Shown here piece after piece: positions 485 to 42,139 of a stretch of DNA of 64,000 nt (its first letter is position 1; every line of letters starts with the position of its first letter). A program made the position numbers and the translations under genes. The stretch is taken from assembly GCF_022201045.2 (NCBI RefSeq), contig NC_068564.1:26751001-26815000 (forward strand), written 5' to 3'. This DNA comes from Citrus sinensis (taxonomy: Eukaryota; Streptophyta; Magnoliopsida; Sapindales; Rutaceae). The notes below the pieces were generated by a model. That model saw only the letters and a list, made by a program, of their open reading frames with translations, was not told the DNA's origin and did no database searches.

Positions 485-1711
485 CTACCAACATTTTCTC
501 ACAACCCAAAAATTTTTGTCGCCAAGTCTAGCAAGGAAATGATAATACATAGACCTCCATTTCCTACTGACAAATAAAGGACCCATCACAAACCAGAAGC
601 CAACTACAAATCCCAAAGCCAAGCTTACATAGAACCAATTCACTTCATCTTCATCACCATCATCATTTCCGTCAATATCATCTTCACTTTCATTGTGTGG
701 TGCTGGAGCAGCCACAAAACAGTTGTTAGGAAGTGGAGAACCACAGAGTCGATTTCCAGTAAAAGATGAGGGATCAAAACTTTGAAGCTGTGTGCTTAAA
801 GGAATTTTCCCACTCAAGTTATTATTAGACAAGTTCAAACGACTCAAAAATGTCAAACTTGAAATACTCTGGGGGATTTCACCATAAAGTTGATTTGCAG
901 AGAAATCAATAGACAATATTGATTCCAAAGCACCAATGCTATTAGGAATTCTTCCGGTGAAAGAGTTGCAAGACAAATCCAATGACACCAATGCTCTGAG
1001 ATTCATTATTTCCGACGGAATCTCTCCTGAAAACTTATTTTTGGAGAGGTCGATAAGTCTCATCAACTTAAGAATTGTGTTATATTCAACTGCTTTTCCT
1101 TTCAGCACAAGTAATGCATCCTCAACATACTTTCCTGTGGAAACACTTGGATATTGTACATCAGTGCCTATTGAAAAATTCGCAGTCACCATGGAACTGA
1201 TGTTACTGATACATTTTGGTATGCTCCCAGAAAGATGGTTATCAGCAAGGTCTAAGACATGCAAAGAAGTTAGACCACAGAGTTGGTTTGGTAAAACACC
1301 ACGAAACTTATTTGAACGAAGGTTGAGGATCATTAAGCTTGAAAATCTTATTCCAATCCATGTTGGAACATTTCCTACAAACTCATTTTCACCAATGTCC
1401 AGCATTACCAGCTTTGTGCAATTCTGAAATGACGCTGGTATTTGTCCGGAGAGAGAATTTTTCCGAAGGTTTAATGATTGAAGGGAACTTAACATTCCCA
1501 AAGAGATTGGAATGTTACCGGTAAAATTATTGTTGCCTAAATTCAAGACCAACAAATCTAACCAATTCATCCAGCAATCAGGTATTTTCCCTGAAAAATG
1601 ATTTTCACCAAGTTTGAGAATTCGCATTCCCTTCAATTGATTGATCCCATCACACACGAAATGAGAAATGGATCCTGACAAGGAATTGTTTGAAAGGTCA
1701 AGAGCATACAC
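485..1711 (-). pseudogene. RLP fragment 4: last LRRs, island, transmembrane helix, tail
   Basis: A 408-codon open stretch carries about ten LxxLxLxxN-type repeats. It then has the non-LRR island seen before the last four LRRs in RLPs, a C-cap with an LCGSPL motif and cysteines, and an acidic juxtamembrane stretch rich in D/E/N. A hydrophobic helix starting at about residue 355 follows, then a basic cytosolic tail ending at the TAG at 485-487. The upstream edge is not a start codon: the frame simply runs into the solo LTR at 1712. It is the only piece that shows the complete membrane anchor, including the basic stop-transfer that the neighbouring paralogue has lost. Confidence 0.92.
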
Positions 1712-3227
1712 TGTTGGGAAAATATGCTCTTTAAAAGCATATGTGTTTATTTAATTGTAATAAACAATTTTTCTGATTAATAAAATAAATGAGGTATTTT
1801 ATTCAAATATCTTAATTGCATTAATATTTGTATTAAAGTCCATTTAATCATATTATATGTATTTATGTGATCACCATGTGGATTCACAGAAGACATAAAT
1901 ATAAGTTATCTTATGATTAAATAAATTTAGTTTGCAGTTGATAAATAAAGTTGGGCACTTTATTTAGGTATAGACTGTAATAAATTCATTGAATGATTTG
2001 TCTTAATCATGTATGAATTTATTGATGTAGTACGACTACATTGAACAGGATCACATATGAAATTTAATTAACTTTGTAATAACTGTCAGACTTATTAAAT
2101 CTCATAGGCATTGATTTTACTGTAATCTTAATCTTGAGTTAATTATGATTTCATGATTGTAATTGTTATTCCATTTGAGTTACCAATGGGCACGACACAT
2201 ACTTGTGGTCAAGATTACCCGGTATCTTGGTGGGAGCAATTATGAGTATTGGAGTTATGGATTAACAATATAGAATTTGTACAACACATCTCTTGATGGG
2301 TTTTCGGCACTTGATTATAGAATTCTCTGGCCAGAGTGTGTCAACATATTTAGTATGTTGAAAATGATCATTAGAGAAAACCAGTAAGGATCAAGGAATA
2401 AGATGTTATTAAATTGATTGGACAGTTGAGATATCAATTTAATTAACGATGTGGTACAAAGGATTGTGCAGTAAAGAAATCAATGTGGCTGGGGACGAAT
2501 TATTATTCGAGCATACAATTATGGAAGTCAGTTCCAATCTTTTAGTGGAGTAGATTTGGAATTAAATAATTAGGCTAGTTTAATTACAGGCTTAATTGTT
2601 ATAGCCACTATTGTATGTTCTCAAATGATCCCCGGGTTAGCTCATTTAATTGACTGCACCACTACTGGACTAATAAGCAAGATAACTAGCTATTTGGGTC
2701 AAAAGCCTAAATATATCATTTAGTGGGAGGCTCTATTTAATTAGCTTATGTGTAAGGGGCCTTATGTTATTTTACATGGTGGATCCCCTATTAAATGAAA
2801 AGTAACGTGAGTTTTATTTAGGGCATTATTTGGAGCCTAGGATTTTCACTAAAAGGAGATATATAAGGCTTATTTTCTCTAAAAGAAAAGGGAGAAGCCA
2901 CTTTATACAGATCAGAGAAAAATTTTCTCGTGCTAGTTACTTTGGTAGTGATAAAGGCGTCCACACGTTAAGTGCAGATCGAACCTGAGTCATAACCTAG
3001 AAGATCATTGGAGACAGTTCGTGATCTAACAAGCGTGGTGGTGACGGATCGTGATCTAACAGGAGTGGTGGTGGCGGATCGTGATCTAGGAGCCTAAATC
3101 ACTTCAGCAGAAAAAGCCAACTCGGATTTTCAAGGTACGATTTCTAGAATACAAATTCTTATATATTATATGAGAGCGATCTTCAAAAGGTTTTATAAAA
3201 ATTTAAAAATCTAATTTTTCCCCAACA
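1712..3227 (+). mobile_element. Solo LTR, probably Ty1/copia
   Basis: About 1.5 kb starting TGTTGGG and ending CCCAACA, so the ends are inverted and have the TG...CA form of an LTR. It is flanked by 5-bp direct repeats TACAC (1707-1711 and 3228-3232), the hallmark of LTR-element integration. No gag or pol reading frame lies inside, so this is a solo LTR left by recombination between two LTRs (or a small non-coding element). A TATATAAG at about 2860 followed by a CT-rich stretch looks like the promoter/R region and sets the orientation as plus, opposite to the RLP. The copia assignment rests only on the end sequence and size. The left edge may be off by one base. Confidence 0.85.
3008..3090 (+). 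repeat. 30-bp tandem repeat in the solo LTR
   Basis: Two full 30-bp units (3031-3060 and 3061-3090) of the form GTGGTGGTG-x-CGGATCGTGATCTA, preceded by a partial unit ending in GTGATCTAAC. They lie downstream of the TATA box, in what would be the LTR leader. Confidence 0.7.
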
Positions 3228-3276
3228 TACACATTGAATGAAACAAGAGGTAAGGGACCGGATAAGTTGTTGAAAC
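3228..3276 (-). pseudogene. RLP fragment 3: 49-bp piece between two insertions
   Basis: Only 49 bp of host gene survive between the solo LTR and the hAT element. On the minus strand they encode an LRR segment (N-L-S-G-P-L-P-L) matching the paralogue's NNLSGQLPLL repeat. The piece includes one copy of each flanking TSD (GTTGAAAC at 3269-3276 and TACAC at 3228-3232), so both insertions hit the gene within about 40 bp of each other. Confidence 0.9.
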
Positions 3277-6200
3277 CAGTGGCGGACCCAGGAAATAAAT
3301 TCAGAAGGGGCTTAATATAAATTGATAAAAAAATTCGACAAGATAATAAAAGCCAACTGAAAAAATAATAAGTAAAATATTCAATTTTATTGACATAATC
3401 ATTTTTAAAACTTCTTCAACTGTTCTCGACGTGTTTTCATATTTTGAAAACGTCGAATAATATCTTCATTGTCAATACAAGCAAATACATCTTTTTCTAT
3501 GTATACAACTAAGTTATCATTCAGCCATTGATCACCCATCCGGTTTCGAAGTCGATTCTTCACAAAATTCATGGCTGAAAATACTCTTTCTACAGTGGCA
3601 GTAGCTACAGGTAGAATTAAAGCCAATGTAACCAATTGGTAAACTAACGGGTACACTTTGTCCTTTTTAGTCTTAACCATTGTCCTTGCAAGTTCACCAA
3701 TCCCTTTCAATTCTGAAAATTCTGCACTAGATCGTAAATCCATAATGTATACATCAAGTTGCATCTCAAGTGCTATAAGATCTATTGCAGAAAAATCTTT
3801 AGGATAAAATTCAGCAAGTCGCAGTAATTTTTCCTTGTCAAAAGCTGCAAACAAATCATTTGGATATAGACAAGCCAAACAAATAAGCAACTGAGTATTT
3901 GACTCATTGAAACGATTATTTAGCTCTTGAAGTTGCATGTCTAAGACAGCATAAAATAACTCAACTCGATACCGATGTAAATTTGTGATCTCTCGAGCTT
4001 TACGGCGTGATCGCCCTGGAATTAAAAACAAATCATCCATATCTAAAACATCGATATCATGCTTGCTACAGAAAGTAGAAACTTGACCAAATAAAGAATC
4101 CCATCCACTATCTCTCAACTTCTGAAGGTTATGCTTATAAACTTCAACCAATTTTACAGCATTCAAAATATCTTGATCTTTCCTTTGTAGTGCTCGTGAC
4201 AATTCATTTGCATAGCCAAGAATATTTTTCATTAAGAATAAACAAAATACAAAATCAAATGATTGCATCAACTTCAATAGCGTATTAGCTTGAAATCTTT
4301 GTTCAGAATTTCCTTCAACTTCAATTACCTCAAGCACATCAACCACAGATGGAAACATAGAAATTATGCTCATTAACGTACCATAATGAGAAGACCAGCG
4401 TGTATCAGCAGGACGCTTTAAAGTAATCTCCTGATTTAAACCTTGTCCACTTGAAAGCTCGCCTTTACCTAATGCTTCAATAACTGCAAGAGCATGTTTC
4501 TCATGTAGAATGTCACGACGTTTAGCTGACACTCCAACAACATTAACTAGCATTGAAACTAAATTGAATAAAGAATTAACTTCCTCATGCTTTTTTGCCA
4601 CGGAAATAAGAGCTAACTGAAGTTGATGAGCAAAACAATGAACATAATAAGCAGATTCATTCTCCTCTAAAATGAGCGTTTTCAAACCATTAAACTCACC
4701 CTGCATATTACTTGCCCCATCATAACCTTGCCCACGTAACATTGACAAACTCAATCCAAACCTTGAAAACATATTGTCAAGAGATTCTTTAAGTGAGGCA
4801 GCTGTAGTGCTAGAAACATGTTCAATGCCTACAAAACGTTCAACCACATATCCATTCTTATCCACATAACGTAATACAACAGCCATTTGCTCTTTTGTAG
4901 ATATATCACGAGACTCATCAATTAGAATAGAAAATAATGCACCATCCATCTCTCTAATAATAGCATTAGTAGTTTCAGTTGCAACACAACTTACAATGTC
5001 TTTTTGGATCTTTGGAGATGTCATTTGCAGATTTAGAGGAGTATTTTTGAAAGTAACAGCATTAATATCTTCATTATGATCAGCAAGGAAGTGTAAAAGC
5101 TCAAGAAAATTCCCTTTGTTGCTTGAACCATCAGACTCATCATGCCCACGAAATGCTAGCCCTTGATTTAAAAGAAATCGAATACAATCAACAACAACAT
5201 TCAAGCGAGTTTCATATTCACTTTGAGTTTTCTCGGATTGTCTTTCAAAAAATGTTGCAATATGTTGTTTCTGATTCATCAACCTTTCACATTTCTGCCT
5301 AGCTCGATTATGGGCACTATTGACACCTCCTTCATGAATCTTTAATTTTTCTTTTTTTTTTCCAATTTTTAAATCCTTTCCCAGTAAAAGTATCACTACC
5401 TGCTTGATCACCATTATCTTCTTTGAAAAGATAACAAAAAAGACAATATGCAGACTCTTCTTTTATACTATATTCCAGCCAAGAACCAAATTCTTTGAAC
5501 CAATCCGAAACAAATCGTCGTTGTTGATTTCCAAATTTCTCAAATTTAAAATTGTGCCCCTTAGGTTGAAAAGGACCCCTTTGTAAGTATGTTCTTCGGA
5601 CTTGATCTCAAATATTACAATTATAACTATCAATACAAGGTCGTAAGCCAGGGTCAGCAGGCAAATTTTGTAAATTGACTTCATATGAACCATGACTAGT
5701 TCCTTCTAAAGGAGATGGGAGCTGTGGTTTCTTTTTAAAAATTTTTTCCATATCTGTTTCAAATCAAATAAAACTATTAATTATTAGATTAAATTTCACA
5801 GTAAGGCTAAATCCTAACAAAATAACGAACAAGAATAATTAATTTAATACAAATTTGATATTATAAAAACATTATTTGACAACACACCCAATGGGGCTCA
5901 CGGGAAAGATACATGATTGTAAATTTTACTTTTTCAATTGCTCATTTATTTGCATTAACAAAGTGATTGCTTTTAATTATAATTTATATAATAAATTATA
6001 CACCACTTAAAACTTTCATCATTTCACAGAGCACCCAGTGGGTGCCACCCACTGTCCCACCACTTTCCCTTTCAATTTTAATATTAAAGAATTGCTCACT
6101 TTTCACAAATCAACTTTTACTTTTGGAATTTTGTAGATAGCTATCAGAATAAGAATTGATGAATGAAGTTAGAGAGATGCAGCACATTCATTCGGCCAGA

Positions 6201-6681
6201 ATCATTAGTCAAACTTCAAAACAACATTCAAGCACAATACCTGTTTCAATCTATGGGCTATGGCTGATCTAGCAAGGGACGAAATCATCAAAGGCTCAGC
6301 GATCGCGGCAACAGATAACAACGAGTTGGTGGCAGACTGGCAGCAGGAATGGAAACGTTCGTCGGTGGCGGTGGCCGGTCTTTGTGATTTCGTGATTCAC
6401 AGTTTCATGATTTTGGGGTTTGTTTTTTTATTCCTTTAATTTTTTTATTATTAATATAAAACGATGAGTTTTGTAAGTTAGTTTTAAATTAGAATTTGAT
6501 TAAATTAAAAAGTTTTTATTATTTAAATGGGTTTAATTTCAAAGCCCAAAATACTTTGTTTTTGTTGAGAAAAGTTATTGGACTTAATAATTAAAAGGGG
6601 CTTTATGGGCTAAATTTAAAAAAATTTTAAGGCTCAGGGGGGGCTTAAGCCCCTCCTGGGCCTGAACTGGGTCCGCCCATG
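3277..6681 (-). mobile_element. hAT transposon, DUF4371/TTF-type, decayed
   Basis: A 3.4-kb element with imperfect terminal inverted repeats: CAGTGGCGGACCCAG at the left and, on the other strand, CATGGGCGGACCCAG at the right. It is bounded by perfect 8-bp TSDs GTTGAAAC (3269-3276 and 6682-6689), as expected for hAT. The inverted similarity extends further inward, around a GGGGCTTAA motif on both sides. Its transposase frame is on the minus strand and is broken. The non-coding 5' kilobase (about 5760-6640) holds a GC-richer patch at 6260-6410 and AT-rich sequence. It lies inside the RLP coding sequence. Confidence 0.93.
3405..5752 (-). pseudogene. hAT transposase, TTF zinc finger + DUF4371 + hAT dimerisation domain, broken
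   Basis: The likely start is the ATG at 5752-5750. The first part reads a TTF-type zinc-finger segment (motif DWFKEFGSWLEYS, then CLFCYLF). The main 669-codon frame (5414-3405) gives DUF4371 with the hAT catalytic signature: an ILIDESRD aspartate, GYDGASNM, CFAHQLQL and DTRWSSH. It ends in the C-terminal hAT dimerisation domain (VATATVERVFSAMN). Two lesions are visible: an in-frame TGA at 5608-5610, and a frameshift at an A10 run (plus-strand T run, 5352-5361) that separates the zinc finger from the rest. With nine A's the frames would join. Downstream of the run the frame is open to the stop at 3405, so this element was probably mobilised as an intact copy and decayed afterwards. Confidence 0.88.
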
Positions 6682-7882
6682 GTTGAAACTCAAGTCAAGT
6701 GACTCAAGTTGACTCACCTCAGTTAGATTTGGGATCTCCCCGTATATATAATTGTGAGAGAGATTTAGATAATTAATCTGGGAGAGATTTTTCCAAACCC
6801 AAGTAGGAATTGTATCTACAATTCTTGTATTGGATATATCCAGATAAGTTAAATGCTTTTGTGAATGAAGCCATGGGGGAAATTGATAGCCTAAATCACA
6901 AGATCTCAAACCCAACACTTCAAGTTGAAAAGGGGGGAACCAATCATGACTGACATTGAAGGTTAATGAGTTACCAGACGCTTTAAAGTCCAGCAACCTC
7001 GTGAGATTAGAAAAATGAATTTGAGAAAGAGTTCCATTTAATCTGTTCAAGGAAAGATCTACAACTCTCAATGTTGAAAGTTCACCTAAAGACAATGGAA
7101 CATGCCCAGAAATGAAATTGTCACTTAGATCAAGAGTGTCTAGATTTCTAAATTGCCCAAGTTTATCAGTCAAAGGACCAAAAATGCGGCAATTTCGCAA
7201 AACCAAAATCTCAAGCCCATCAGAAACACATCCTGAGAAAATATCAAAGATTTCAGACATCTCCTGACTCAAGTTGACTCCTGACAAAGATATTGACTTC
7301 AAATTGCAAAGTCTTCCCAAAGATCTTGGAATTTTCCCTTCAAGCCTATTGTTTGAGAGATAAAGCCTATTGATAGAAGTAAGATTTCCCAATGCACCCG
7401 AAACCTTACCTTCCAAGGTATTGGAGTTAAGAGAAACTTGCTCAAGAAGGCTAAGCCTACGGAACCATTTGGGAACGGAAGAATTAAAATGGTTGTTGGA
7501 CAAATAAATGTGTCTAAGGGAAGTCAAGTTCTGAACTCCATCAGGAATTGGACCGCCGAAACTGTTATTTCTAAGATCAAGAGAGACTAAATTATGAAGA
7601 CCGAAAATCCAACTGGGTTCTAAAGACTTTGAAATTGGTTATTGGAGAGATCAAGTGTGGCAAGAGATGAAAATTTTGCAACGGACAGAGGAGGAAAGTA
7701 AGAGAGACGACAACCTGAGAGCCGCAGCGACACTAAGGAAGGGAGTGTGTTCATAACAAGCAACCAGTCAGAAGCTCTGCTAAGGTCTACATTGCTTAAG
7801 TCAAGGTGCTCTAATGAAGAAAGGCCGGATAGCCACCTTAAATTCCCAGCGTATAAACCCAAGTATTTCTGACTGAGGTCAA
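6682..7882 (-). pseudogene. RLP fragment 2: central LRRs, one frameshift
   Basis: About 400 codons of LRRs, read as two overlapping frames: 7877-7620 in one and 7623-6682 in the other. The switch at about 7624-7635 is explained by loss of one base, because upstream and downstream repeats align with the paralogue without other gaps. Motifs include HLDLSNVDLS, RLSYFPPLSVA and repeated LxxLDLSxN. The right edge (7878-7882, GTCAA) is one TSD of the Ty3 element and the left edge (6682-6689) is a TSD of the hAT element. Confidence 0.92.
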
Positions 7883-8546
7883 TGTTGATGCCGAAATCTG
7901 CTCGTCCTTAGACCGACCAGATTCTTTCACCAACGTTTAAGTTATCAACTGCTGCACGAACCGCTAAGGTTGGAATCACCCTCCTTTCTCTCACTAGACC
8001 TGCGTTCACCGAAAACGGATCAGAGACGCCGGTGGTTTTGCCGGCGTAAACCCTCCGATGCCTAAGTTAGCACAAGGTGTTTACGGGAAAACAGTATAAT
8101 TTGGATTTAAGGTGTTTGTTAGAAATTTGTAAGGAAATGGCCTGGTTGCAATTTGGCAGCGTTTTCCCCCTTTTCCGGTTTTCTCTCCTTTTCTTCATCG
8201 ATTTCATCTTCTTTTATAGCCGCTGTCCCCACGTTCCCGTTTGCCCTTCATCCCACCTTTTTTGGGCAGTGGCAGCCCCTCATGGGACTCTAACTGCTGC
8301 ATCATGGGCAAACGTGGGATCTCGCATCTCCCGCAACGGTTCTGGGAAAGCGCAACTGCCGCAATTCTGTGAGATCGTGCTTCCGCTTTTTGGGGTACGG
8401 GTACCGGCTCGGTATATACCTCTGATCAGTATTCGTCTTGGCTCGGCTCGTGTTGCCCCTGCTCTGCTCGTACCATTTGGCTGAGGTGATTCATGCCGGG
8501 GTGGAAATAGTAGCATGACCGACCTGGTGCTTTTATTTACTTAACA
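7883..8546 (-). repeat. 3' LTR of the Ty3/gypsy element
   Basis: 664 bp, nearly identical to 17989-18652 (constant offset of 10106 bp, no indels seen). It is 3' in element orientation because gag-pol reads leftwards. It contains a minus-strand TATAAAAG at about 8211-8218, equivalent to that in the 5' LTR. Confidence 0.97.
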
Positions 8547-8567
8547 CCAGTCCCCTAGTTTCTAGTC
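8547..8567 (-). other. Polypurine tract of the Ty3/gypsy element
   Basis: Directly inside the 3' LTR, the minus strand reads GAAACTAGGGGACTGG before the LTR start TGTTAAG. This is the position and purine-rich character expected for the plus-strand primer. Confidence 0.6.
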
Positions 8568-9146
8568 TTGTGAGTGAAATGAGTCAAGAGTAGAAACTGA
8601 TTGTCAAATCTTGCCAATCCGGGGGCTTCTCCTCTGGTTTTCTACCTACAGGGACGGACCTGAGGATTTCTTTTCTTCAGGGGAGGTTTTGACCTGAGCA
8701 TGGGCCTAAATGAGCATGTCCATTGCGTATCTGGGCTTGCATCTAGCCTGGCTTCTTGTAACAGTTGGTGACGTGGCATCCGCAGACTCTTCATATTTTG
8801 AAATTTGAAATGACGGGCTATCTGTCCTCGATGTACGGTGCGTCTCCATTACTTTAATGCTTTCATTTCCCCCTTTTCGTTTCAAATCCCTAGACTGGAG
8901 TCATCATCATCTTGTTACTCGTTCCTCCGCCGTTAACCAAATTTTCTCTGAACTTTGCTCATACTCCCAGCGTCCGGAGTATCCATTTGCTGGGTGTTGT
9001 CTCTGTCACGGCAGCGCTATCAGTGTCCGTCTGTTCCAGGTATAGCCTTTAACCTTTTCTTTGGTTGTTGTTGATTGGGTTCTGTGTTGCCCCTTTTTGT
9101 ATTCGTGTACTTGGGTTTGTTTTGGTTTTTCTTTTGAGATTCCGAT

Positions 9147-11283
9147 ATGTCAAACCGGAAAAGAAAGTTGATTGTTGATGAAGGTGATGAAGAATCAGGG
9201 GATTCAGGCCTCAACGTGTCAATACCCACCGATTTCTTGGGTCCCTCCAGTAGTGTAGGTCCTTCCCATGGCAGGGATACCCTTGAGTACCCACGCCCTC
9301 TGGTTGCCTCTTCCTTCCCCGAACTAGCGCTTGTAAAAAATAGAGGTGGGCCTGCGTCGGGCTCTGGTGAGAACCACAGCTTTGGTGGGGTTGGGATCTC
9401 TGAAGGAGTTGGCGATGGTGAGGGGAGCAGTTCCGGACCGAGCCGATCTGCTCAGAGAAGAAACCTAGGCCATAGGGTGGAGGCTGATTCCTACCCTATT
9501 GATTTCATGGCTTGTGCCACCACCCCCACTGACCTATTTAAACTTAGGAACCTCTACGACATCCCCAGCGAGGTTCTTCTTGTAGTTCCTGGAAAAGGCG
9601 ATGTCCCTAGTCGGCCTCCAAAAGGGTATGTGACGATGCACTTGGAGAGTTTCAAACTAGGAGCTCGGCTGCCCCTTCAACCTTACTTTGCCAAGATACT
9701 GGGCGGTATGCACCTAGCCCCAGGTCAGCTGCACCCAAATGGGTGGAGGGTTCTCTCGGCGATGTTTGTGTTGTAGGAGAGGTGTGGGTCGGAGGAGCCT
9801 TCTCTTGTCGAAGTGAAACATCTGTATCAGCTGCGGAGTAGCCCAAATGAGGCAGGCTGGTATTATTTTATGTCCAGTTCTGCCAAGAGGAAACCGATCA
9901 CTGGGTTTCTATCTTCATGTAAAAATTGGAAGAACAAATTCTTCTTTGCTGGAGGGAACTGGTGTCCAGCAGTTCGGTCGCTTGGTGGGGACATATATCT
10001 TCCCACCCATTTTGTCACCCCAGGTCGTTCATTTTTGCCTATATTCTTAATTAAACTGCTACTTATTGGGTTCTTTAACCTTTTGTGCTATTTCAGAGTC
10101 GTGGGGTCTGATCGGGGGGCTTGAAGATCGGCCTTTGCTTCAGGTGGAAACGGCTCTATTGTACGCGTCTACCTGCCAAGACCTCCTGTCACCAACAAGT
10201 CTGGTCAGCTCGGGCTTAGTGGATATAGCCGCCGGGATGGATAGCAAGATTCTCAGTGCTATGACCAGAAAGCGTGGTCGGGCTTCGAGCAGCTCCAGCA
10301 ACCCTCCTCCTCCCCCGAAGAAACCTAGCGTTGGTCCTTCCAAGGCGCCTGTTCCTGCTCTGCCCCCACCTCCACCTCGTAAGAGTGTTGGGGAGAAAAC
10401 CTCCGACAAAAGTCCTGAGGTCAGCTTACAGTCTGGGGACCGTTCTTCTCCTCTACTATCTCGGGATCAAGTGGACTACCTGAGCCCGTATCAGAAGGAT
10501 TACAAAAGAGCGGTGGGGCCCAAGATGGTGAAGGACATCAAGAGTATGAACCTCTCCGAATTAGCTGCTTCCGTTCAGAGAGTGTCCTTCAGGTTGGCCA
10601 CCATGGTTTCGTGCTACAAGATTGGGTCCGCGCGCCATGAGAAGAAACTCCAAGCTGACAATCAGGAATTGAAGAAGAAAGCTGAATCTGCTGATCGCTC
10701 TAAGGAGAAGCTGGCTGAGCTGAACAAGCAGGTTATGGAGCTAGAGAAGAGAGTTGCGGTTGCTGAATCCACTTCCTCCAAACTCGAGGTTGAGCTGGGT
10801 GACCTGAGGTCTGATCTCCATGCTACTCAAATTGAAAGGGATACTCTGAGGGCCGCCCTTGAGGGGGAAATCAAATCCTTGGGTGAGCAGCTGGCTGAGG
10901 AGAAAGGCAAATCCGCTGATGTGGACGATCGACTGGATGCCGAGTATGACTCTGGGGTTGCCTTCTCCTATAAGTGCATAATGTCTGTGCTTAAGGAAGA
11001 ATATCCCGAGCTAGACATGAGCAAGCTGGAGGCTGGAGTGGAGAGGTACATGGCTGAGGTCGGCCAGGGTGATAAGGAGCAGGGCGGGCAGGATCAGGTG
11101 GAGGCTCCTTCGGATGGCGTGCAAGAGGGGGAAGCTGGGGGACGCACTCTCGAAGTGGGTCAAGGGTCCATGCCTCCTCCTCTCGGCATTGCTGATCTTC
11201 CACCTCCAGATGTTGCTGATCCCTCACTTCCCGAGCTCGCTGATCCTTCAGCTGCTGGAGCCGTTGATTCTCCTAACCTTTAG
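9147..11283 (+). pseudogene. Antisense extra gene of the Ty3 element (Transposase_28-like + coiled coil)
   Basis: A gene on the strand opposite to gag-pol. Exon 1 (9147-10023) carries a conserved plant block (YDIPSEVLLVVPG ... LHPNGWRVL) that I match to the putative gypsy-type transposon domain family (Transposase_28, PF04195). A 73-bp intron with GT...AG ends (10024-10096) joins phase-correctly to exon 2 (10097-11283). Exon 2 has a proline-rich linker, a coiled coil of about 130 residues at about 10600-10960, and a proline/aspartate-rich tail. Total length is 688 codons. One in-frame TAG at 9774-9776 breaks exon 1. Antisense ORFs at this position are known in Tat-group elements; their function is unknown. 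The intron is my inference from phase and splice signals. Confidence 0.75.
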
Positions 11284-11395
11284 GCCTATTTTTTGTATAA
11301 GCTCTAGATTTGCGTTTGTTTTGTAAACAATTTAAGCATTTATAAAAAAAAAATTTTGAATGCTCTCTATTGGCTTTCCTGTTTGGTTTTTTAGT

Positions 11396-12060
11396 GCATT
11401 GAACAGGAATAGGCATCCGTTTGCCTTAGCGAAATTTTCGCAAAATTGCCTGCTGGTCTTCGGTGACCGAGCAGGAGTAGGCCCTTACTTGCCTTGGTAA
11501 AATCTTCGTAAATTTAGCTGCTGGTCTTTCGTTGACCGAGCAGAAGTAGGCACTGATTTGCCTTAGTAGAATTTTCGTAGCTTTAGCTGCTGGTCTTTCG
11601 TTGACCGAGCAGAAGTAGGCACTTACTTGCCTTGGTAAAATCTTCGTAAATTTAGCTGCTGGTCTTTCGTTGACCGAGCAGAAGTAGGCACTGATTTGCT
11701 TTAATAGAATTTTCGTAGCTTTAGCTGCTGGTCTTTCGTTGACCGAGCAAAAGTAGGCACTGATTTGCCTTAGTAGAATTTTCGTAGCTTTAGCTGTTGG
11801 TCTTTCGTTGACCGAGCAGAAGTAGGCACTTACTTGCCTTGGTAAAATCTTCGTAAATTTAGCTGCTGGTCTTTCGTTGACCGAGCAGAAGTAGGCACTG
11901 ATTTGCCTTAATAGAATTTTCGTAGCTTTAGCTGCTGGTCTTTCGTTGACCGAGCAGAAGTAGGCACTGATTTGTCTTAATAGAATTTTCGTAGCTTTAG
12001 CTGCTGGTCTTTCGTTGACCGAGCAGAAGTGGGCACTTACTTGCCTTGGTAAAATCTTTA
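11396..12060. repeat. 69-bp tandem array in the Ty3 element, two unit types
   Basis: The motif GACCGAGCAGAAGTAGGCAC recurs at exact 69-bp steps: its GACCGAG core starts at 11465, 11534, 11603, 11672, 11741, 11810, 11879, 11948 and 12017. A degenerate first unit begins at about 11396. Units are of two kinds, distinguished by TTACTTGCCTTGGTAAAATC (A) and TGATTTGCCTTAGTAGAATT (B), in the order A B A B B A B B A. The array lies between the integrase stop and the end of the antisense gene and contains no ORF. Confidence 0.95.
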
Positions 12061-12214
12061 TTGATTAGACTAGCAGGGGGATTTCTTGCTGAATTCATCT
12101 TTATTTGAAATTTGAATGCATTACAAGAATACTGAATACATACATGTGCAGCAAAGCCATGATGCAGTTAGCATAGATATCTTGTCAAAATGGGGATTTA
12201 GTAGAGCACTTTGC

Positions 12215-13573
12215 TTACTGGAAATACTTCTTCAGGTGTTCGGCGTTCCATGACCTCTGCACTTCTCGTCCATCTTGGTGCGCTAATTTATAGGCTCTTG
12301 GTCCAGTGGCTCGTATCACCCGGTACGGGCCTTCCCACTTCGGGCCAAGAGCGCCATGGTTAGGATCCCTGGTGTTCTGGTTCACCTTCCTAAGTACCCA
12401 ATCTCCTGCTCGGAACTGCCTCACGCGCACGCTCTTGTTGTAATAACGCATGACCCTTTGTTGGCACTGGGCCACTTTCTGCACTGCCCCTTCCCTTTTC
12501 TCCTCCAGCAGGTCTAGACTTAAGCAAATCTGCTCGTCATTTTGCTCCTTTGTGAAATATTCCGTCCGATGTGTTCCTACACCAACCTCTGCTGGGATTA
12601 CCGCCTCATGACCAAAAGCTAAAGCGAATGGTGTTTCTCCTGTGGCGGTTTTGTGAGTTGTCCTGTAGGCCCACAGTACTCCCGGTAGCTCGTCAACCCA
12701 AGCTCCCTTCTTCTCTCCCAATCTAGTCTTTAGGAGCTTCTTTATCACCTTGTTGGCTGCTTCCACTTGTCCGTTTGCCTGGGGGTGTGCGGGGGTGCAG
12801 AACTTCAGGTCCACCCCCAGGTTTCGGCAAAATTCCCTGAAGTTGCCGTTGTCAAATTGCCTCCCATTGTCTGTGATGATGGCGTAGGGGATCCCATATC
12901 TGCAGATGATATTTTTCCAAATAAAATTTGTTGTCTTCCTCTCTGTGATCTGGCTGAGGACTCCTACTTCCACCCACTTGGTGAAGTAGTCTATTGCCAC
13001 AATTGCATGTGTCGCCGCTCCTCGTCCCTTAGGCAATGGACCAATCAAGTCGATTCCCCATTGAGCGAAAGACCACGGGGATGTCATAGCCGTCAGCTTT
13101 TCCGGGGGTTGTGCAGGAACCTCGGAGAAGCTTTGGCATGTTTTACAATTCTTTGCCATCCTTTTGGCATCCTGGTGCATGGTTGGCCAGAAGTATCCTT
13201 GCCAGAGTGCCTTGAAGGCCAAAGTTCTTGCTCCCGAGTGATTGCCGCATATTCCCTCATGAATTTCTCTCAGCACATAATTCGCCTCCTCATCATCCAA
13301 ACATCTCAAAAGGGGCAAGGTGAACCCTCGGCGGTACAGCACTCCATCCAGTAGCGTATACCTTGCTGCTCGGCATTTTAATTTTCTTGCTTGCCTTTTG
13401 TCCTCTGGTAAAACTCCATCGCTGACATATGCGCGAATCGGGTCCATCCAGGATTCTCCAATACTTATTCTCATCACCTCTGCTTCTTCCTCAATACTTG
13501 GTGAGGTCCTTACCTCTAGTGGAATTGACTTCGGTAATTTAGGATCTGCAATGGCTGCCATCCTAGCCAGCAT
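12215..13573 (-). pseudogene. Integrase of the Ty3 element
   Basis: 452 codons in the same frame as RT. The HHCC zinc finger (IHEGICGNH ... CKTCQ) precedes the catalytic core: AQWGIDLIGPLP (first Asp), ITDNGRQF (second Asp) and ANGQVEAANK (Glu). A GPY/F-type region (LGPKWEGPYRVI) and a short tail (HLKKYFQ) follow, with no chromodomain. The enzyme joins element DNA to the host genome and makes the 5-bp TSD seen here. Confidence 0.95.
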
Positions 13574-13603
13574 ATCTGCTCGGAAGTTCTCATTCCGGGA
13601 AAT

Positions 13604-15301
13604 CTACTTTACCTCCACTGCTTGGAAAAGCCCAACCATCTGCTTCGCCTTCTTTAAATAAAGACCCATCTTCTCTCCCCTTGCTTGGAACTGATCATTG
13701 AGCTGATTACACACCAGTTGGGAATCTGCTCGAATTTCTACCCTCTCTGCTCTTAGAGCGTGTGCAAGTCCGAGCCCGGTGATAAAGGCCTCATATTCAG
13801 CTTGGTTGTTTGTGAGCTGAAAGTCAAACTTCATTGCATATGTTATTTCGGTTCCTTCTGGGCTTCGTATTACAACTCCTGCTCCGGATCCTTGCTCACT
13901 GCATGATCCGTCAACCATTACCAACCACAACCCCTCTGGTTTCTCCTGCTCTGCTGCTTGCTCCTCCCGAATTTCTTTCCCTGTATCGGCTCGGTCAACC
14001 ATAAATTCAGCCAGAGCTTGGGCCTTGATTGCTCCTCGAGGCCTGTAGGAGAGGTCGAACTCACTTAGCTCTACGGACCATTTTACTAGTCGACCCGATG
14101 CATCTGGTTTTTGAAGCGTTTGCCGAAGTGGCTGGTCGGTCATAACAATAACCTGATGGGCCTGAAAATATGGTCGGAGTTTTCGTGCTGCCGTTATTAG
14201 AGCTAGCGCCCACTTCTCCATCAATGGGTATCTAGTTTCCGCCTCTACCAAGGCCTTGCTCGTGTAGTATACCGGATGTTGCTTTCCTTCTTCTTCCCTG
14301 ACTAATACCGAGCTAGTAGCCCATTTAGAGATTGCTAAGTACAGCAACAGTTGGTCACCCTCTCTTAAAGTCGATAACAATGGGGCCCGGGTTAGGTATT
14401 CCTTCAGCTGCCCAAATGCTTCCTCACATTCCGATGTCCACTCCATCTTTTTCCCTTTCTTTATGGTTTGGAAGAAAGGGTGGCGTTTATCTGTGGCCCG
14501 CGAGATGAATCGGTTTAGTGCTGCCAACTTCCCTGTAAGGCTTTGCACCTCCTTAACTGTTCGTGGGGACCTCATTTCTGTCACCGCCCGTATTTTCTCC
14601 GGGTTGGCCTCGATCCCTCGGTGGCTTACCAGGAATCCTAAAAATTTGCCCGAGCTGACCCCAAATGCACATTTCTTCGGGTTTAGTTTCATCTCATACT
14701 TCCTCAGTAATTCAAAGGTCTCTTCTAGATGCTTCACATGATCCGTCGGCTCTTTGAACTTTGTAATCATATCATCCACATATACCTCCATAGTGTATCC
14801 AATCAACGGTTTGAAGATCTTGTTTACCAACCTTTGATAGGTGGCTCCTGCATTTTTTAGGCCGAAAGGCATTACCCTGTAGCAAAACAAACCCATGTTA
14901 GTTATAAAGGCAGTGCTTTCCTCATCCTGCTCGTCCATGGGTATCTGGTTGTATCCAGAAAAGGCATCCATGAAACTGAGCAGACTGTGACCTGCTGTTG
15001 AATCCACCAGCTGATCTATTTGGGGTAGGGGAAAACTGTCCTTTGGGCATGCCTTATTGAGGTCCATGAAATCCACACACATTCTCCACTTCCCGTTGGC
15101 CTTTTTTACCAGGACTACATTTGAAATCCATTCTGGGTACTTGGCCTCCCTTATAAATCCTGCTTTCAACAACTTCTCCACCTCGGCGTTTATGGCCTCG
15201 TACCTTTCCTGGTTGCAGCATCTCCTCTTCTGTCTCACCGGCCTTGCCCCCTTCTTGAATGCCAACTTGTGGCAAGCTACCCCGCGATTAATTCCGGGCA
15301 T
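13604..15301 (-). pseudogene. Reverse transcriptase and RNase H of the Ty3 element
   Basis: 565 codons. RT motifs in order: SNVVLVKKANGKWRMCVDF, DAFSGYNQI, VMPFGLKNAGATYQ, and the catalytic YVDDMI. A linker homologous to the Ty3 RNase H (LLYLAISKWATSSVLVREE) is followed by a second, archaeal-type RNase H (MVDGSCSEQGSGAGVVI ... RADSQLVCNQL). This second domain is a known trait of the Tat group. The stop at 13604-13606 is a nonsense mutation, because the same frame continues into the integrase. Confidence 0.93.
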
Positions 15302-15337
15302 ATCTTCATGAGACCAGGCGAATATATCCGCATGAGA

Positions 15338-17044
15338 CTATAGGCAATTTACCAGCTCGCCTTTTACTGCCCCAACCAATCCTGACCCGATCTTCACTAC
15401 TCTGCTCGGGTTGCTTTTGCTTACCGCAACTTCCTCCAGTTTCTCAACAGGCTCTTGGCGGCCCTTTTTAGACTCTCCTCGATTATCTAGAGAAGTAACC
15501 TGTAGTGTCTCCTTGGCCGCCGTAGCATAACAACTCCTTGCCATCCTCTGGTCGCCTTTTACTACGCCAACCACCCCATTTATTCTGTATTTCAGCGCCA
15601 AGTAATGCGTGGATACAACGCATTGGCTTATCCTCATGAATGGTCTTCCCAGTATCATCTGGTAAGGGCTTCTTTCCTCTACCACGACGAAGTCCAGCAT
15701 CATCGTTCGTTTAAATGGCTTTGTCCCCACCGTAATCGGGAGTTCAATGATCCCCAAGGGAGTTAACCGTCCCCCTTCAAATCCTTTTAAGGAAGTATTT
15801 GTCCGCTCCAGCTTTAAATCTGAAATCCCCATATCATCTAGGGCTGACTTAAATAGAATGTCAACTGAACTGCCCGTGTCCACCAGTATTCGCCGCAATT
15901 CTGTGCTAGCCACTGATGCTTTAATTACTAGTGCATCCTCATGAGGATACAAAATACCCTCTTCATCCTCATCCGTCCACATAATGGGAACTTGTCGCAC
16001 TTTTGCCTTCTTGGTTGCTGGCAAATTGAAAAGCACTTCTTTGCTAGTCAGGGCGTATCTCCCATAGTTTTTCCGTGCCCTGTTCGAATCTCCGGCCAAT
16101 GTTGGCCCTCCTGCTATCACACGGATGGTCGGCTGTTCACGTTCCAGATCCCTCTCAACTCCTTCATCCCGTGTGTACTGTGATTCCATGACAGGGGATG
16201 TTCCATCTACATACTCGTCCAAGTATCGGTTCCTCACTAAGTCCTCCACCTGAATCTTCAGGTCACGACATTGGCTGATAGTGTGACCGTGAGTGTCGTG
16301 GAACTTGCAGAATCTGCTCTTATCCCGTCGGTGAGTCGGTTTTGTTATTGGGGCTGGAGGGTACAGTAGGCCTCGTCCCTCGATCCTCTCATACAATTCC
16401 TCCATGGAGATCTTTAGTGGAGTGTATTGTCTATATGTCAAGCTTTGGTCTACCAGCTGAACTGCTCGGCTATCATGAACGTCACCTCGGGCTGGCATAG
16501 TCGCTAACTGATCTGGTTTTCTAGCCCTGGAATTGGTTGCATATAATGCTCTGGGATTGTTATGATAGGGGTCGGCAGCCATCTGCCGGAATTCTCGCTG
16601 CCGATCCGGGAATGGAGGACGTGGAGGTTGAGCCCGATTGTGTTGGAACTGTTGTGATCTCGGAGCTATGGGGTAAGGGCGGGATCGAGCTGATGTTCCG
16701 CCCCTTACTGAGGGTTCCCCAGCTCGCTTTGCCGACCCGCTCCCATTTGGAGTTCTCCTTTCCTTTCGTCTCAGCTCCTTCAGCTGTTCATTCTTTATCT
16801 TTGCCGATTTTTCTTCTTCGATTTCGATATCTCTCTTTGCCTGCTCATATCCTGCTGAATAATTCTGCACCAGGGGGCTTCTCAGGTTATACCATAGCCG
16901 GCCTATCCTCACACCCTCCTTTAAACCCCTTAACGCCTGCGGGTGATTGAAAGCTCCTAAATCAAGTACGGCTCGGTGGTATCGCTTTACAAAATCCCGT
17001 AGGGACTCGTGCTCCTCCTGTTTCATCCCCATCAGTTCCATCAT
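15338..17044 (-). pseudogene. Gag C-terminal part and aspartic protease of the Ty3 element
   Basis: 568 open codons. The first 60 finish the gag domain (ESLRDFVKRYHRAVLDLG). A basic linker follows, then a zinc-binding-like stretch (CKFHDTHGHTISQC), then the retropepsin active site DTGSSVDILF and the flap region ending ILGRPFM. The frame stops at the TAG at 15338-15340 and resumes directly with the conserved pre-RT segment (DIFAWSHEDMPGI). So one nonsense codon separates protease from RT; the border is not natural. Confidence 0.9.
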
Positions 17045-17203
17045 GTCGTCCTCTGGGGCTACTGCCCCTCAGAACTGCTCGGCCAACTCCTGGCACATCT
17101 GCTCATACCCCTTTATACTTCCTCGGTGCAGCTTGCGGTACTATTCTCGAGCTCGTCCTTCTAGTGTCAACGGGAACGCCCTGCACCTCTGAGCTGATGT
17201 CAG

Positions 17204-17908
17204 CCCCTACACACCCGTCATATCGTTGAAACGCTCAATGTGCACCAGTGGGTCACTTCGCCCGGAGTATTTGAGGTCGGGAAAGCAGAAATCTCTTGGG
17301 ATTATGGTACCCATGATCTCAGTTGATAACGGAGATTCTTCATCTAACATTATCCTCCAACTCGGGGGCTTTCTCTTGCCCTGTATCTCCTCTATCACCT
17401 GCGCCAACCTGCGCACCTCCCCCTCCAATTCTATAGCACGGTTAGGATCACGCGCAGCTATCTGGTCTCGCTCCTGCTCGGCGTTCTGCAACTGTTGTCT
17501 GAGCTCTCCTTCATCGACACTGGCACCTCGGCCTGTATTTTCCAGTACCCGTCCGGGGCGAGGTTGGTCTCTCCCTTCATCCCCGTGTTATCCTGGGACC
17601 TGACCAGTACTTCTGTGGGGATGCACCCCATTAGGTTGGTCTGCGGGCGGAGGAATGTCCTCGACTCTACGTCTCCGGAGGCTGGGTTCTGCTCCGACTT
17701 CATCTCTTCCCACGGGGGTTTCACAATCCCTTCTCCGCTCATCCCTCAGCTCAAACAATATGGACGCGAGAGTTTCCATTTGTTTCTCCATCCGCTCCAA
17801 TCTGTCTTGCATCATCCTCTCTCGGGCTTCATTCGCAATTTCCCGGAGAGTGATTGTTTCCACCGTTTCATTGTCCTCCCTCAAAGTATCCTTTCTTGAC
17901 ACATCCAT
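17204..17908 (-). pseudogene. Gag N-terminal part of the Ty3 element
   Basis: This region is open apart from TAA 17588-17590 and TAG 17207-17209. It begins MDVSRKDTLRE, followed by a charged helical region (RMMQDRLERMEKQMETLASI) likely to be a coiled coil, an arginine/proline-rich linker, and the start of the conserved gag domain (PDLKYSGRSDPLVHIERFND). It makes up the capsid-forming part of the polyprotein. Stops at 17141 and 17069 lie in the centre of the same domain further downstream. Confidence 0.85.
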
Positions 17909-17964
17909 ATCTGATCGTTCGTTGCTTCTCCGGTAACTGCTAATTTGGTGGTAGCTTTTTATTC

Positions 17965-17988
17965 AACTCCCCACAGACGGCGCCAAAA
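17965..17988 (-). other. Primer-binding site of the Ty3 element
   Basis: Immediately inside the 5' LTR, the minus strand reads TTTGGCGCCGTCTGTGGGG. The TGGCGCC start is the complement of a tRNA 3' end carrying CCA and is the usual form in plant Ty3/gypsy elements. I do not assign the exact tRNA. Confidence 0.8.
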
Positions 17989-18652
17989 TGTTGATGCCGA
18001 AATCTGCTCGTCCTTAGACCGACCAGATTCTTTCACCAACGTTTAAGTTATCAACTGCTGCACGAACCGCTAAGGTTGGAATCACCCTCCTTTCTCTCAC
18101 TAGACCTGCGTTCACCGAAAACGAATCAGAGACGCTGGTGGTTTTGCCGGCGTAAACCCTCCGATGCCTAAGTTAGCACAAGGTGTTTACGGGAAAACAG
18201 TGTAATTTGGATTTAAGGTGTTTGTTAGAAATTTGTAAGGAAATGGCCTGGTTGCAATTTGGCAGCGTTTTCCCCCTTTTCCGTTTTTCTCTCCTTTTCT
18301 TCGTCGATTTCTTCTTCTTTTATAGTCGCTGTCCCCACGTTCCCGTTTGCCCTTCATCCCACCTTTTTTGGGCAGTGGCAGCCCCTCATGGGACTCTAAC
18401 TGCTGCATCATGGGCAAACGTGGGATCTCGCATCTCCCGCAACGGTTCTGGGAAAGCGCAACTGCCGCGATTCTGTGAGATCGTGCTTCCGCTTTCTGGG
18501 GTACGGGTACCGGCTCGGTATATACCTCTGATCAGTATTCGTCTTGGCTCGACTCGTGTTGCCCCTGCTCTGCTCGTACCATTTGGCTGAGGTGATTCAT
18601 GCCGGGGTGGAAATAGTAGCATGACCGACCTGGTGCTTTTATTTACTTAACA
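17989..18652 (-). repeat. 5' LTR of the Ty3/gypsy element
   Basis: 664 bp with TGTT...AACA ends, followed by the TSD GTCAA (18653-18657). A TATAAAAG on the minus strand (18324-18317) is the probable promoter. By-eye comparison with the other LTR finds about ten substitutions, eight of them transitions. Confidence 0.97.
18317..18324 (-). promoter_or_regulatory. LTR TATA box
   Basis: TATAAAAG on the minus strand inside the 5' LTR, about 330 bp from the PBS. It is conserved in the 3' LTR and would drive the genomic transcript leftwards. Confidence 0.4.
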
Positions 18653-19135
18653 GTCAAGATGCTGTAGATTAGACAGATTTGCAAGTTGGTGAGGAATCAT
18701 TCCCAAAAAGCCGGCACTTGAAAGATCAAGGTAGCTTAAATTCACCATGGAACCAAGAAATGGAGGAATCTGAATTCCTCCAAAGTCATTAAAGCTTAAG
18801 TCCAAGTAAACCAAATGCTTTAAATGAAGCAAAGAGGGACTTATCTTACCACCCAACATTGATATCTGGGAAGGATTATTTCTGAGTTGAAGCATACGGA
18901 CATGGCCTGTGAAGTTGTCACAGACAACACCAGCCCATGTGCAGCAATCTTCTTCATCACCAATCCAACTGGCAAGCCGGTTCGAAGGATCTATGAGATC
19001 TTGCTTGAACCTTAAAAGTGCCTCTCTCTCACTCCCCATGCAAGCCACATAAGAGCTTCCATTGCAGAAGCTAATATTGATGGTTGCTATGGCAAGTAAT
19101 AACTTGAGAAAAAGCAGGGCAACAACTTCACTCAT
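18653..19135 (-). pseudogene. RLP fragment 1: signal peptide, LRR N-cap, first LRRs
   Basis: 161 codons starting [12 protein letters not shown] hydrophobic signal peptide (residues 1 to about 22) precedes the LRR N-terminal cap with paired cysteines ([17 protein letters not shown] ... [12 protein letters not shown]), then the first LRRs ([18 protein letters not shown]). It is about 75% similar by eye to the paralogue N-terminus. The frame enters the Ty3 LTR at the TSD and resumes without loss at 7877. Confidence 0.93.
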
Positions 19136-20940
19136 GGTTGAATGGTTTAATTTCATAATAATAAGAAAATCGGTCTGGGTGAATCTCCCTTGGTTAGCAT
19201 ACAATAGGCTGTTTATAATGACCACGATTTCCACGTATAAGTTGCAGGAAGTTTCTGCGAGTAATTAAAATGCAGGAAATTATACAGTATATTCAAAGAA
19301 TTTTAATTGTAATGGGTCCAGAAGTAAAGGAATAGACTTTTAAGTCTATTCGAGAGTTTATTTTTTGGGTAAACCCTCAACGTCTCTTCTGATTCGGAAG
19401 TTCTGAAATTTCGTATATCATTTAATAATTGTTAAAAACAAAAAAAAATGTAAAGAATGCTAGTTAAGTTTTTGATTAGCGAGCTGGAGGTCCAAGAGCT
19501 CCATGGACAACAAGAACATTGACATTGAACATCAATCAGTTGATGTTATTACATGGGGTTAACGGGCCGGGTGGTTCTTATCAAATCGTTTCTTTAAGTT
19601 CTATTAATTCCACATGATATTGTTTCCTAATTATGTAATTATTAACTATTACTAATCGTTCAATCTAAGTGTGGAATTTTTCTTTTTTTTTTTTCCGTAC
19701 ATTGATATTTGACAGTAAAAATTCTACTAATATTATCAGATCTCTACTGAAACTAACTTAAATCATAAATATTATGATATAACCTAGAGTTCTTCCTTCA
19801 CTATCGGGAGTTGAGTCCGATGCTTCCTGGGACTTGGAGTCAATACTAACAAGAAACTATATATTTATTTATTTCTTTTTCGTGCAGGTCCCGCACTTTT
19901 TAACGTATTAGTTGAAGTTTTTGCTTTTGAGTGTGTATTTTTATAGACTCAAGTCAAGTCAAGGCTTAATTAATGTATAACAATTATTGAATTGTATACT
20001 TTTAGAGTAATTTCTACATATGCAGGCAAGAAAGACTAAATGGAAAAATGCCAACCGGGAAACTCTACGTGAAGATCAAAGAAACCACAAGGAAAGTCAT
20101 TACTCATGACTTATACATATAAAATAAATAAATTAATGGTTTCTTATCAGTCAGTTGCATGTAACGTGGGCTGATATTATGGCTAAGCCATTTAGTCCCC
20201 AAAGACAAAATTTATGGCTTGTGGCTTGTTATCATCTCCTTTATCATAAAGGTAAATCGTTTTTTGGGGCCAGTATGCTTATAACTAAATCGTCCCGAGG
20301 ATATGAATAATGGTGATTGGAATTAGATGAAGAATTTGAAAAGAATTTCATCCTCCCAAATCAAGAAGATTATGAGCTAAAATTAAGACAATTATGACAT
20401 TCATATTGCCATTTTTCTTACTTAATTCTCTATTGATTGCAGCTGAGTTCTGTAATTTGGCCTCCTTCCTGACTACTCATTTTCTCATTTTCCCTATCTT
20501 TAACGGTTCTAATTCTTAACCTGTAGTAGACACTCTTGCCCTATTTATGTATCCAAATGATTAGTGATCACAAACCCCCCCCCCCCTCCAAAAAAAATTA
20601 TTGATCTATTTTTAGTTTATTTTATGTTTTTTTTTTAATATGCCGACTCCTTTGAACTTCTCCACATTCAATTATTCAAACTAATCGGCATAGTTTATTA
20701 CGGGTAAAACAAGATGCATCAGAACTATGCAGTTCAGCATCTGAATTTTTTTTTCATTCTTCTAATTAAGTTGTTATTGGATAATTCAATTCTCTCTCAT
20801 CTACATGGATTTTATCCAATAACGAGTGTTCTTATTTGAGCCAAAGCTCAATTACTTATTATTATTATTATTTTTTTTCAATTTTATGTTACCCATCTCT
20901 GAACAAACAATTGAAGTGCGAAATTTTTTTTTCCAACAAC
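19136..20940. other. Intergenic region between the two RLP genes
   Basis: AT-rich upstream flank of the RLP pseudogene and downstream flank of the intact-length paralogue. It contains homopolymer tracts (T10 at about 19683, C12 at about 20576, T9 at about 20627). No ORF with recognisable motifs and no element ends were seen. Confidence 0.5.
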
Positions 20941-37428: not shown

Positions 37429-38006
37429 TCTTCACAAAAAATCAACATCACAGCAGCAACAAATCAACACAACAGCAGCAACAAATAAAAAGAACCTGAT
37501 GCTCAATAATTTTACTAACTAATATCAATTGTACGCACATAGAACAATATATGTACAAGAATTGATTCCCATATTCATTGATAAATATAGACTCCTTAAT
37601 TAATGCACCGAATCAGTGTACAATTTGAGCAACTAGCTGGCTAGGTAAAGTTGTATAATCAAAATTTCATGAATTAAAAGTAGTAAATAACAAAACATCT
37701 GTAAAGGTGGCTTTAAGCTCTTTTATTAATTTTCTTATTTTCCAAAGATCAGAGATCCCTGGAGAATGTTAAAGGTTCATATAATATGATGTTAACAACT
37801 AAGAAGTGTGACTTTTGTCTCTTATTATTTATTTATTTATTTATTTTTATTATTTTTTCTGGCCGTGGTTAGAACTTAGAACTGCTATCTATGAGTTGTA
37901 GCTGGTCAAGTTGACATCTTGCCCATCACGTGGTGTTTTCAATTAACTCAAAGAATGTAAATTGTCCATTCTGAATTTAGAGAACGAACGACCTGGTGGC
38001 ACATAC

Positions 38007-39778: not shown

Positions 39779-40047
39779 CAGTATTCTTTATGAAAGAGCT
39801 ATTATTGTCGTCTTATACAGTTATATTGTCTTCTTCTTATTGGGCGGGCGGAGTATGTATAGCTGAGGCCCACTCTCATCAGATAAAAAAGAAGCGGGAA
39901 AATCATTCAGTTTCCGGCCGTACAAATTTCTGGGTCGGAGCTCAAATCTCTTTTACTTGAGGGGATAAGTTTTCAATTCAGCCCATAAATAATCATCCGC
40001 GACATAGAAGCCTAACCAGAACACCTCCCAAATTTTATTTCAAATCA
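39779..40047 (+). promoter_or_regulatory. Upstream region of the F-box gene
   Basis: Between the PIF MITE and the ATG at 40048. No unmistakable TATA box. The leader just upstream of the start is AT-rich with several TAA stops in frame, which supports the chosen start. Confidence 0.3.
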
Positions 40048-41352: not shown

Positions 41353-42139
41353 GTATATTTTTATATTTTCATTGTGCTAAAGAATGACTTTATCAGAACT
41401 TGTTTATAGCTTTCTTTTTTCTTTTTTTCATTAAATGACTAATTCTCTGCTGTAGTGAACTTCAATTGATCTGAATATACTTTTCTAAACCACGATGACA
41501 TTGAATGATGCCACTAATTCTCTGATTATGTGATTATAATTATCTAGTATGTATTATACTTTGTTCATGATACATAAACATAAATGACATGTATAACATA
41601 TGTCGTCCACACATTCTAAAATGTGGTTTCAACATTTTGCAAGGCCTGAAAAGGTTTTGCAGTGGTAGAAAATGCAGGATCGGCGTAGCCCCAGTCAGTA
41701 CAAAATCTGAAAGAAAATGACTTTTGGGAAACAAACAGGCCTGACTTAAAGATCCACGAAGGGAGAAGGCCTAGGCAATTGGTCCATTTATGATTATGAA
41801 TTAGGGGTTCTTTAATTTGGCGTGGAAATTTTCTTTTGACAATTCAACTGGTTTCGACTTTCGAGAAAGTCTTGTTTGTGTTTGTGTTGCATAACTATTG
41901 CTTTGAGGCATTTAGGTGTTAAGTAATCCCAGCAAGATTAACAGAGAGGTAAAGGAGTTTCCTTGATTGTGGCACTGGAATTTATTAAGCCTATGTATCA
42001 ATTGTTTGATTATTTTGAATTGTGAATTAGAAACACAAAAGAGAATCTATGAAGAAAACGTATTGGAATGAACATTGTTGGATTCGTGTCATGTACATGT
42101 GATACACCTCCCAGCAAATATAGAGCCCTATCAATTTCA
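41353..42139. other. Sequence after the F-box exon, no exon recognised
   Basis: If the gene is intact this would be intron, but no FBD-type exon could be read in any frame. Confidence 0.35.

Follow-up and report, generated by a model that had tools for sequence, protein, structure and literature searches.

Leucine-rich repeat (LRR) receptor-like proteins (RLPs) of the EIX type act in immune signaling via partner kinases, and in the Xa21 family of rice, resistance-gene paralogs have been disrupted by transposons. The locus described here lies in a stretch of 64,000 nucleotides of the Citrus sinensis genome (contig NC_068564.1, positions 26,751,001 to 26,815,000; hereinafter the window, numbered from its first letter), where an LRR-RLP gene is found in four pieces. 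It is very probable that an RLP gene was triplicated and that its middle copy, the one in the window, was made a pseudogene by three transposons and a deletion.

The four pieces, all on the minus strand (Table 1), are joined at three pairs of target-site duplications (TSDs), each of them exact, namely TACAC (1707-1711 and 3228-3232), GTTGAAAC (8 bp; 3269-3276 and 6682-6689) and GTCAA (7878-7882 and 18653-18657). The respective inserts, a putative solo long terminal repeat (LTR), a hAT transposon and a Ty3 retrotransposon, total 15.7 kb; judged by coordinates, none is nested in another, and 49 bp separate the end of the solo LTR (3227) from the start of the hAT element (3277). When a script removes each inserted element together with one of its two TSD copies, the joined sequence comes to 4291 nt, and its three minus-strand frames contain just two open frames of more than 80 codons, 19264..7623 and 7638..488, which overlap. 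From the ATG at 19135 (a second in-frame ATG, at 19156, lies seven codons 5' of it) to the stop at 485, the pseudogene spans 2942 nt, that is, 981 codons minus one base. Compared with two intact copies of the gene, the frame is broken once, by a single-base deletion in codon 245, near position 7626. The four pieces are confirmed as one former RLP gene that was split by three mutually independent insertions, none inside another, and that carries a single frameshift. An earlier sequence-only reading of this DNA had described the locus in these terms (one gene, exact TSDs, a solo LTR, a hAT and a Ty3 element inserted independently, two of them 49 bp apart, one base short of 981 codons, few other lesions), and its account stands, with the frameshift that it had placed at about 7624-7635 now refined.

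This conclusion rests on the comparison with the two intact copies, for which 191 kb of the neighboring chromosome was searched together with the window (255 kb in all). Copy A (C9:26684294-26687365, about 64 kb away) and copy C (C9:26826063-26829134, about 56 kb away), both on the minus strand, are collinear with pieces 1, 2 and 4, with DNA identities to A and C, respectively, of 97.2% and 97.4% for piece 1 (607 nt, 18658-19264), 97.2% and 97.2% for piece 2, and 96.3% and 96.4% for piece 4. In both, pieces 1 and 2 abut to the base, and piece 3 is present as 44 nt between pieces 2 and 4, with the same two positions differing from the window. Chance joining of the pieces is excluded because copies A and C carry each TSD singly and run on uninterrupted across all three sites. 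In both, the open frame extends over 1023 codons from one stop to the next, and there are no introns; read from the ATG equivalent to 19135, copy A comprises 981 codons, and its alignment with copy C is gap-free. Against this background, the coding sequence (CDS) in the window shows one indel only, the one-base gap, and the other 979 of the 980 sense codons contain no stop. The window copy is 96.3-97.4% identical to the intact copies per piece over a gene of 981 codons, whereas its disabling lesions, the insertions and the frameshift, are absent from both homologs, as is characteristic of a pseudogene. The lesions are directly legible because the broken copy sits between two intact ones.

The three copies belong to homologous units arranged in series, at about 26.680-26.717, 26.742-26.786 (the window unit) and 26.822-26.856 Mb, the first boundary lying near the edge of the sequence compared. 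The window unit, whose length includes the 15.7 kb of inserts, is the middle one and the diverged outlier. Copies A and C differ at 2 sites in 980 codons (one silent and one replacement difference), and between their units, the identity of the longer matching pieces varies from 90 to 99.6%. An array with outer units that are near-identical in the gene and a diverged middle could possibly come from recent duplication, from conversion or from a haplotype placed in tandem. Across window positions 1-20527, the difference from copy A increases along the gene: it is 1.7% upstream, 2.8% for pieces 1 and 2, 3.7% for piece 4 and 11.6% on the downstream side. Such an increase suggests a mosaic, produced by conversion or recombination, and therefore no age in years is given.

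The solo-LTR-like insertion has TG...CA ends, a 5-bp TSD and no coding part: none of the open frames listed (from 90 aa upward) lies wholly within it, and as a query against the 255 kb it finds nothing beyond partial matches at 72-78%. The hAT element combines the 8-bp TSD with terminal inverted repeats that are short and imperfect (by eye, the first 13 bases agree at 11 positions) and an open frame of 685 aa that matches DUF4371 (267.1 bits) and, in its C-terminal dimerization region, Dimer_Tnp_hAT (33.5 bits, cut-off 21.4). The Ty3 element has a 5-bp TSD, two TG...CA LTRs and, on the minus strand, matches to RVT_1 (reverse transcriptase), RNase H, RVT_3 and rve (integrase), in the order reverse transcriptase, RNase H, integrase; its pol frame carries in-frame stops at 13604 and 15338. 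The LTRs, 664 bp each, are identical at 654 of 664 positions, and the 10 differences correspond to a divergence of 1.5% (95% interval 0.7-2.8%). Elements of the Tat lineage of Ty3 have a second RNase H domain and, between pol and the 3' LTR, an antisense open reading frame (ORF); with its RVT_3 match and an antisense ORF at 10051-11283, the element is a possible candidate for this lineage. Antisense open frames extend over 9138-11283, and one of them (9138-9773) has a match to Transposase_28 that is below the cut-off (21.8 versus 26.2). The Ty3 element also contains a minisatellite with a 69-bp unit (11321-12148), which is crossed by a minus-strand open frame of 212 codons (11426-12064).

Table 1. 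Receptor gene pieces, inserted elements, annotated model and neighboring receptor gene in the window
Feature	Position	Strand	Description
RLP pseudogene, piece 4	485..1711	minus	terminal LRRs, then a hydrophobic stretch, a short tail and the stop
Solo-LTR-like insertion	1712..3227	not assigned	1516 bp, TG...CA ends, TSD TACAC
RLP pseudogene, piece 3	3233..3276	minus	44 nt, solo LTR on one side, hAT on the other
hAT transposon	3277..6681	minus	3405 bp, 8-bp TSD GTTGAAAC, transposase ORF 3405-5462
RLP pseudogene, piece 2	6690..7882	minus	LRRs; holds the one-base deletion near 7626
Ty3 LTR retrotransposon	7883..18652	minus	10,770 bp, TSD GTCAA, LTRs 7883-8546 and 17989-18652
RLP pseudogene, piece 1	18658..19135	minus	signal region, LRRNT, first LRRs; Pfam LRRNT_2
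Model KPL70_026806, extent	485..19135	minus	introns of 11,065 and 4,961 bp, both GT-AG
Neighboring open RLP	20973..23855	minus	960 aa, different subfamily member

A protein search with the read-through translation (XX at the lesion; 7949 proteins scored, 7245 over the threshold, the best 120 considered) gives as its best four matches P0013 (96%, full length), P0016 (91%), P0121 and P0122. P0013 (WN944_002027 from Citrus x changshan-huyou, intact, 980 aa, representing a cluster of 13 sequences) contains LRRNT_2, LRR_1 and LRR_8 according to Pfam, and the window pieces show LRRNT_2 (piece 1) and LRRs (pieces 1, 2 and 4); no kinase domain is among the Pfam hits. A hydrophobic, putatively transmembrane C-terminal stretch with a short tail was seen by eye. 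Many of the proteins listed are named receptor-like protein EIX1/EIX2, and the best relative with a solved structure is PDB entry 7drb, "Membrane-localized LRR receptor-like protein". Thus, the intact gene would encode a predicted kinase-less LRR receptor of the plasma membrane, of the EIX type. For the alignment, the sequence-only reading had proposed the neighboring open RLP in the window as reference; with 70.7% DNA identity to copy A, this gene proved too distant a neighbor to be the yardstick, and it was kept as a comparison and an outgroup.

The same reading had considered it possible that an intact allele survives. The intact genes identified are two paralogs, A and C. P0013, 96% identical to the window copy over its full length, was first accepted as such an allele and then dropped, copies A and C being far closer to it (972 and 973 of 980 residues, respectively, versus 937 of 980 for the window copy); it looks like a counterpart of copies A and C instead and is therefore no evidence of an intact window allele. 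In P0122 (CUMW_240290 from C. unshiu), residues 1-160 equal those of the window copy, the remainder is of the A/C type, and the switch adjoins the Ty3 site. This hints that C. unshiu may share the Ty3 insertion, although a join in a draft assembly or in a gene model would look alike. Another protein from Citrus x changshan-huyou, P0128 (WN943_001999, 573 aa), is of the A/C type and lacks about 210 internal residues as well as the usual C-terminus; it is perhaps another damaged or misannotated copy.

Several comparisons bear on the time of the loss. Between the window copy and copy A, the silent divergence (dS) is 0.065 and the replacement divergence (dN) 0.021, with a dN/dS ratio of 0.32 (40.5 silent and 47.5 replacement differences). 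With P0016 as the outgroup, the window lineage receives 21 amino-acid changes and the A/C lineage 23, 2 being unplaced; with P0013 substituted for A/C, 21 changes are derived in the window copy and 19 in P0013. Polarization at the DNA level with two distant paralogs as outgroups places 37 of 86 changes (9 replacement and 10 silent for the window, 12 and 6 for A/C) and leaves 49 of the 86 unplaced. A model in which the window copy is unconstrained since the Ty3 insertion (LTR divergence 1.5%, background ratio 0.25, equal rates in LTR and gene) expects about 65% of 44 changes on the window branch, and the probability of 21 or fewer is 0.015, rising to 0.14 when the LTR difference is set to its lower bound. 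The lack of stops, with a probability of 0.43 under this model, is uninformative. Protein change in the window copy is thus not accelerated compared with the intact ones, which fits a recent loss, and set against the time when the copies split, the loss looks recent. The claim of the sequence-only reading that selection was lost recently is accordingly supported (one indel, no stop, 21 versus 23 changes and the model test) but not proven.

The locus also has an annotated protein-coding model, which raises the alternative of a working gene whose inserts are spliced out as introns. P0121 is KPL70_026806 from Citrus sinensis, 874 aa, a letter-for-letter translation of exons 19135-18652, 7586-6690 and 1728-485 with GT-AG introns between them. 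Intron 1 takes in the Ty3 element, one base excepted, and the frameshifted stretch; intron 2 takes in the hAT element, piece 3 and almost the entire solo LTR, 17 bases of which are retained in exon 3. The model probably belongs to the annotation of the phased Valencia genome which, according to PMC9832951, was made with BRAKER/Augustus and drew on RNA-seq besides ab initio prediction. Together with the exact translation and the rate of protein change, which is not higher in the window than in the intact copies, this speaks for a spliced 874-residue receptor. However, transposon sequence would make up most of the two introns (11.1 and 5.0 kb), the model is 106 residues short of the 980-codon frame, omitting the frameshifted stretch and gaining LTR-derived residues, and both intact copies are single open frames. 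Such a working gene is very unlikely. The particular version in which the transposons act as introns, so that a shortened receptor gains a few residues from exonized retrotransposon (LTR) sequence, is highly improbable; if true, it would be a new receptor form. Because the intact copies have no introns, KPL70_026806 is explained most simply as a gene-model artifact, and it is probably a false model in which transposons were modeled as two introns at the locus of the pseudogene. Literature searches found no paper under the gene names (nor do the titles retrieved name the gene) and none on transposon-caused false introns.

Two other explanations set the pseudogene itself aside or question the array. 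That each piece is a gene of its own, or that fragments from different RLPs came together by chance, is next to impossible: RLP clusters are rich in fragments, and a genome search with the neighboring RLP as the query (47 of 1677 candidates scored) lists several partial or interrupted matches, but all four pieces are consecutive on the same two intact copies, with no gap or overlap save the one-base lesion, and the empty sites contradict such an origin. Neither of the two patterns that the sequence-only reading had named as contrary to it is seen: the paralogous empty sites carry a continuous LRR frame, and a search with the C-terminal piece and its LTR junction (4344 matches among 7977 scored, lengths 0.55-1.75 times the query) gives no protein of at least 90% identity among the best 120 matches. 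An assembly error, either at one or more junctions or in the form of two haplotypes misplaced in tandem as copies A and C, is unlikely and yet has to be reckoned with. Sweet orange is a highly heterozygous hybrid, as stated in PMC9832951, and the doubt about a false duplication arises from the close similarity of the A and C coding sequences, with 2 differences in 980 codons. Insertions flanked by TSDs, on the other hand, are biological signatures that are not made by assembly, and the identity of the longer matches between the A and C units varies from 90 to 99.6%, unlike in a plain duplicate, although two haplotypes could vary likewise.

Some points weigh against the pseudogene reading or its details. 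A false duplication would leave one intact partner, not two; the copy is called dead on the strength of the frameshift and the 15.7 kb of inserts; the intact copies come from a comparison covering 255 kb of chromosome; and changes with negative BLOSUM62 scores number 8 of 21 in the window copy versus 4 of 19 in P0013, so that the window changes, nominally somewhat more radical, lean slightly against a very recent loss.

Taken together, the observations are best compatible with the following scenario. An EIX-type LRR-RLP gene in a tandem RLP cluster would have been triplicated by segmental duplication, and afterwards, if the order is read correctly, the middle copy would have been turned into a pseudogene by three transposons that independently entered its single exon and by the deletion of one base. 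We infer both the age and the loss of function of the window copy from sequence. The flanking copies A and C are still open, and the loss was probably tolerable because of this redundancy. The intact product is predicted to be a receptor without a kinase that would signal via partner kinases.

Elsewhere in the window, there is a second hAT-type transposase (35323-37431), a 702-aa open frame with a BED zinc finger, an RNase-H fold and a dimerization region; a Mutator-type (MULE) transposase (47043-49580) with an open 845-aa frame and a SWIM zinc finger; and an F-box/LRR-type frame (39961-41409) with an in-frame stop at 40909 and a 165-codon open frame past the stop. An Rfam search of the whole window yields 0 matches.

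The practical point, which concerns gene models, is weightier than the biological one. In public protein sets, a pseudogene appears to be counted as a sweet orange protein of 874 aa; where models read insertions as introns, the number of receptors in transposon-rich clusters can come out too high, and comparison with single-exon paralogs would reveal such models. Biologically, the process is an ordinary one: the gene is a birth-and-death pseudogene, unusually well resolved, and the locus is a snapshot of birth and death within an RLP cluster, of textbook quality and suitable as a teaching case. The citrus gene shares with EIX1/EIX2-type LRR-RLPs and with 7drb an LRRNT, a long LRR stretch and the lack of a kinase match. 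It resembles the Xa21 family in that duplicated receptor genes were inactivated by transposons, and differs from it in that three elements have entered a single gene that is flanked on both sides by an intact copy.

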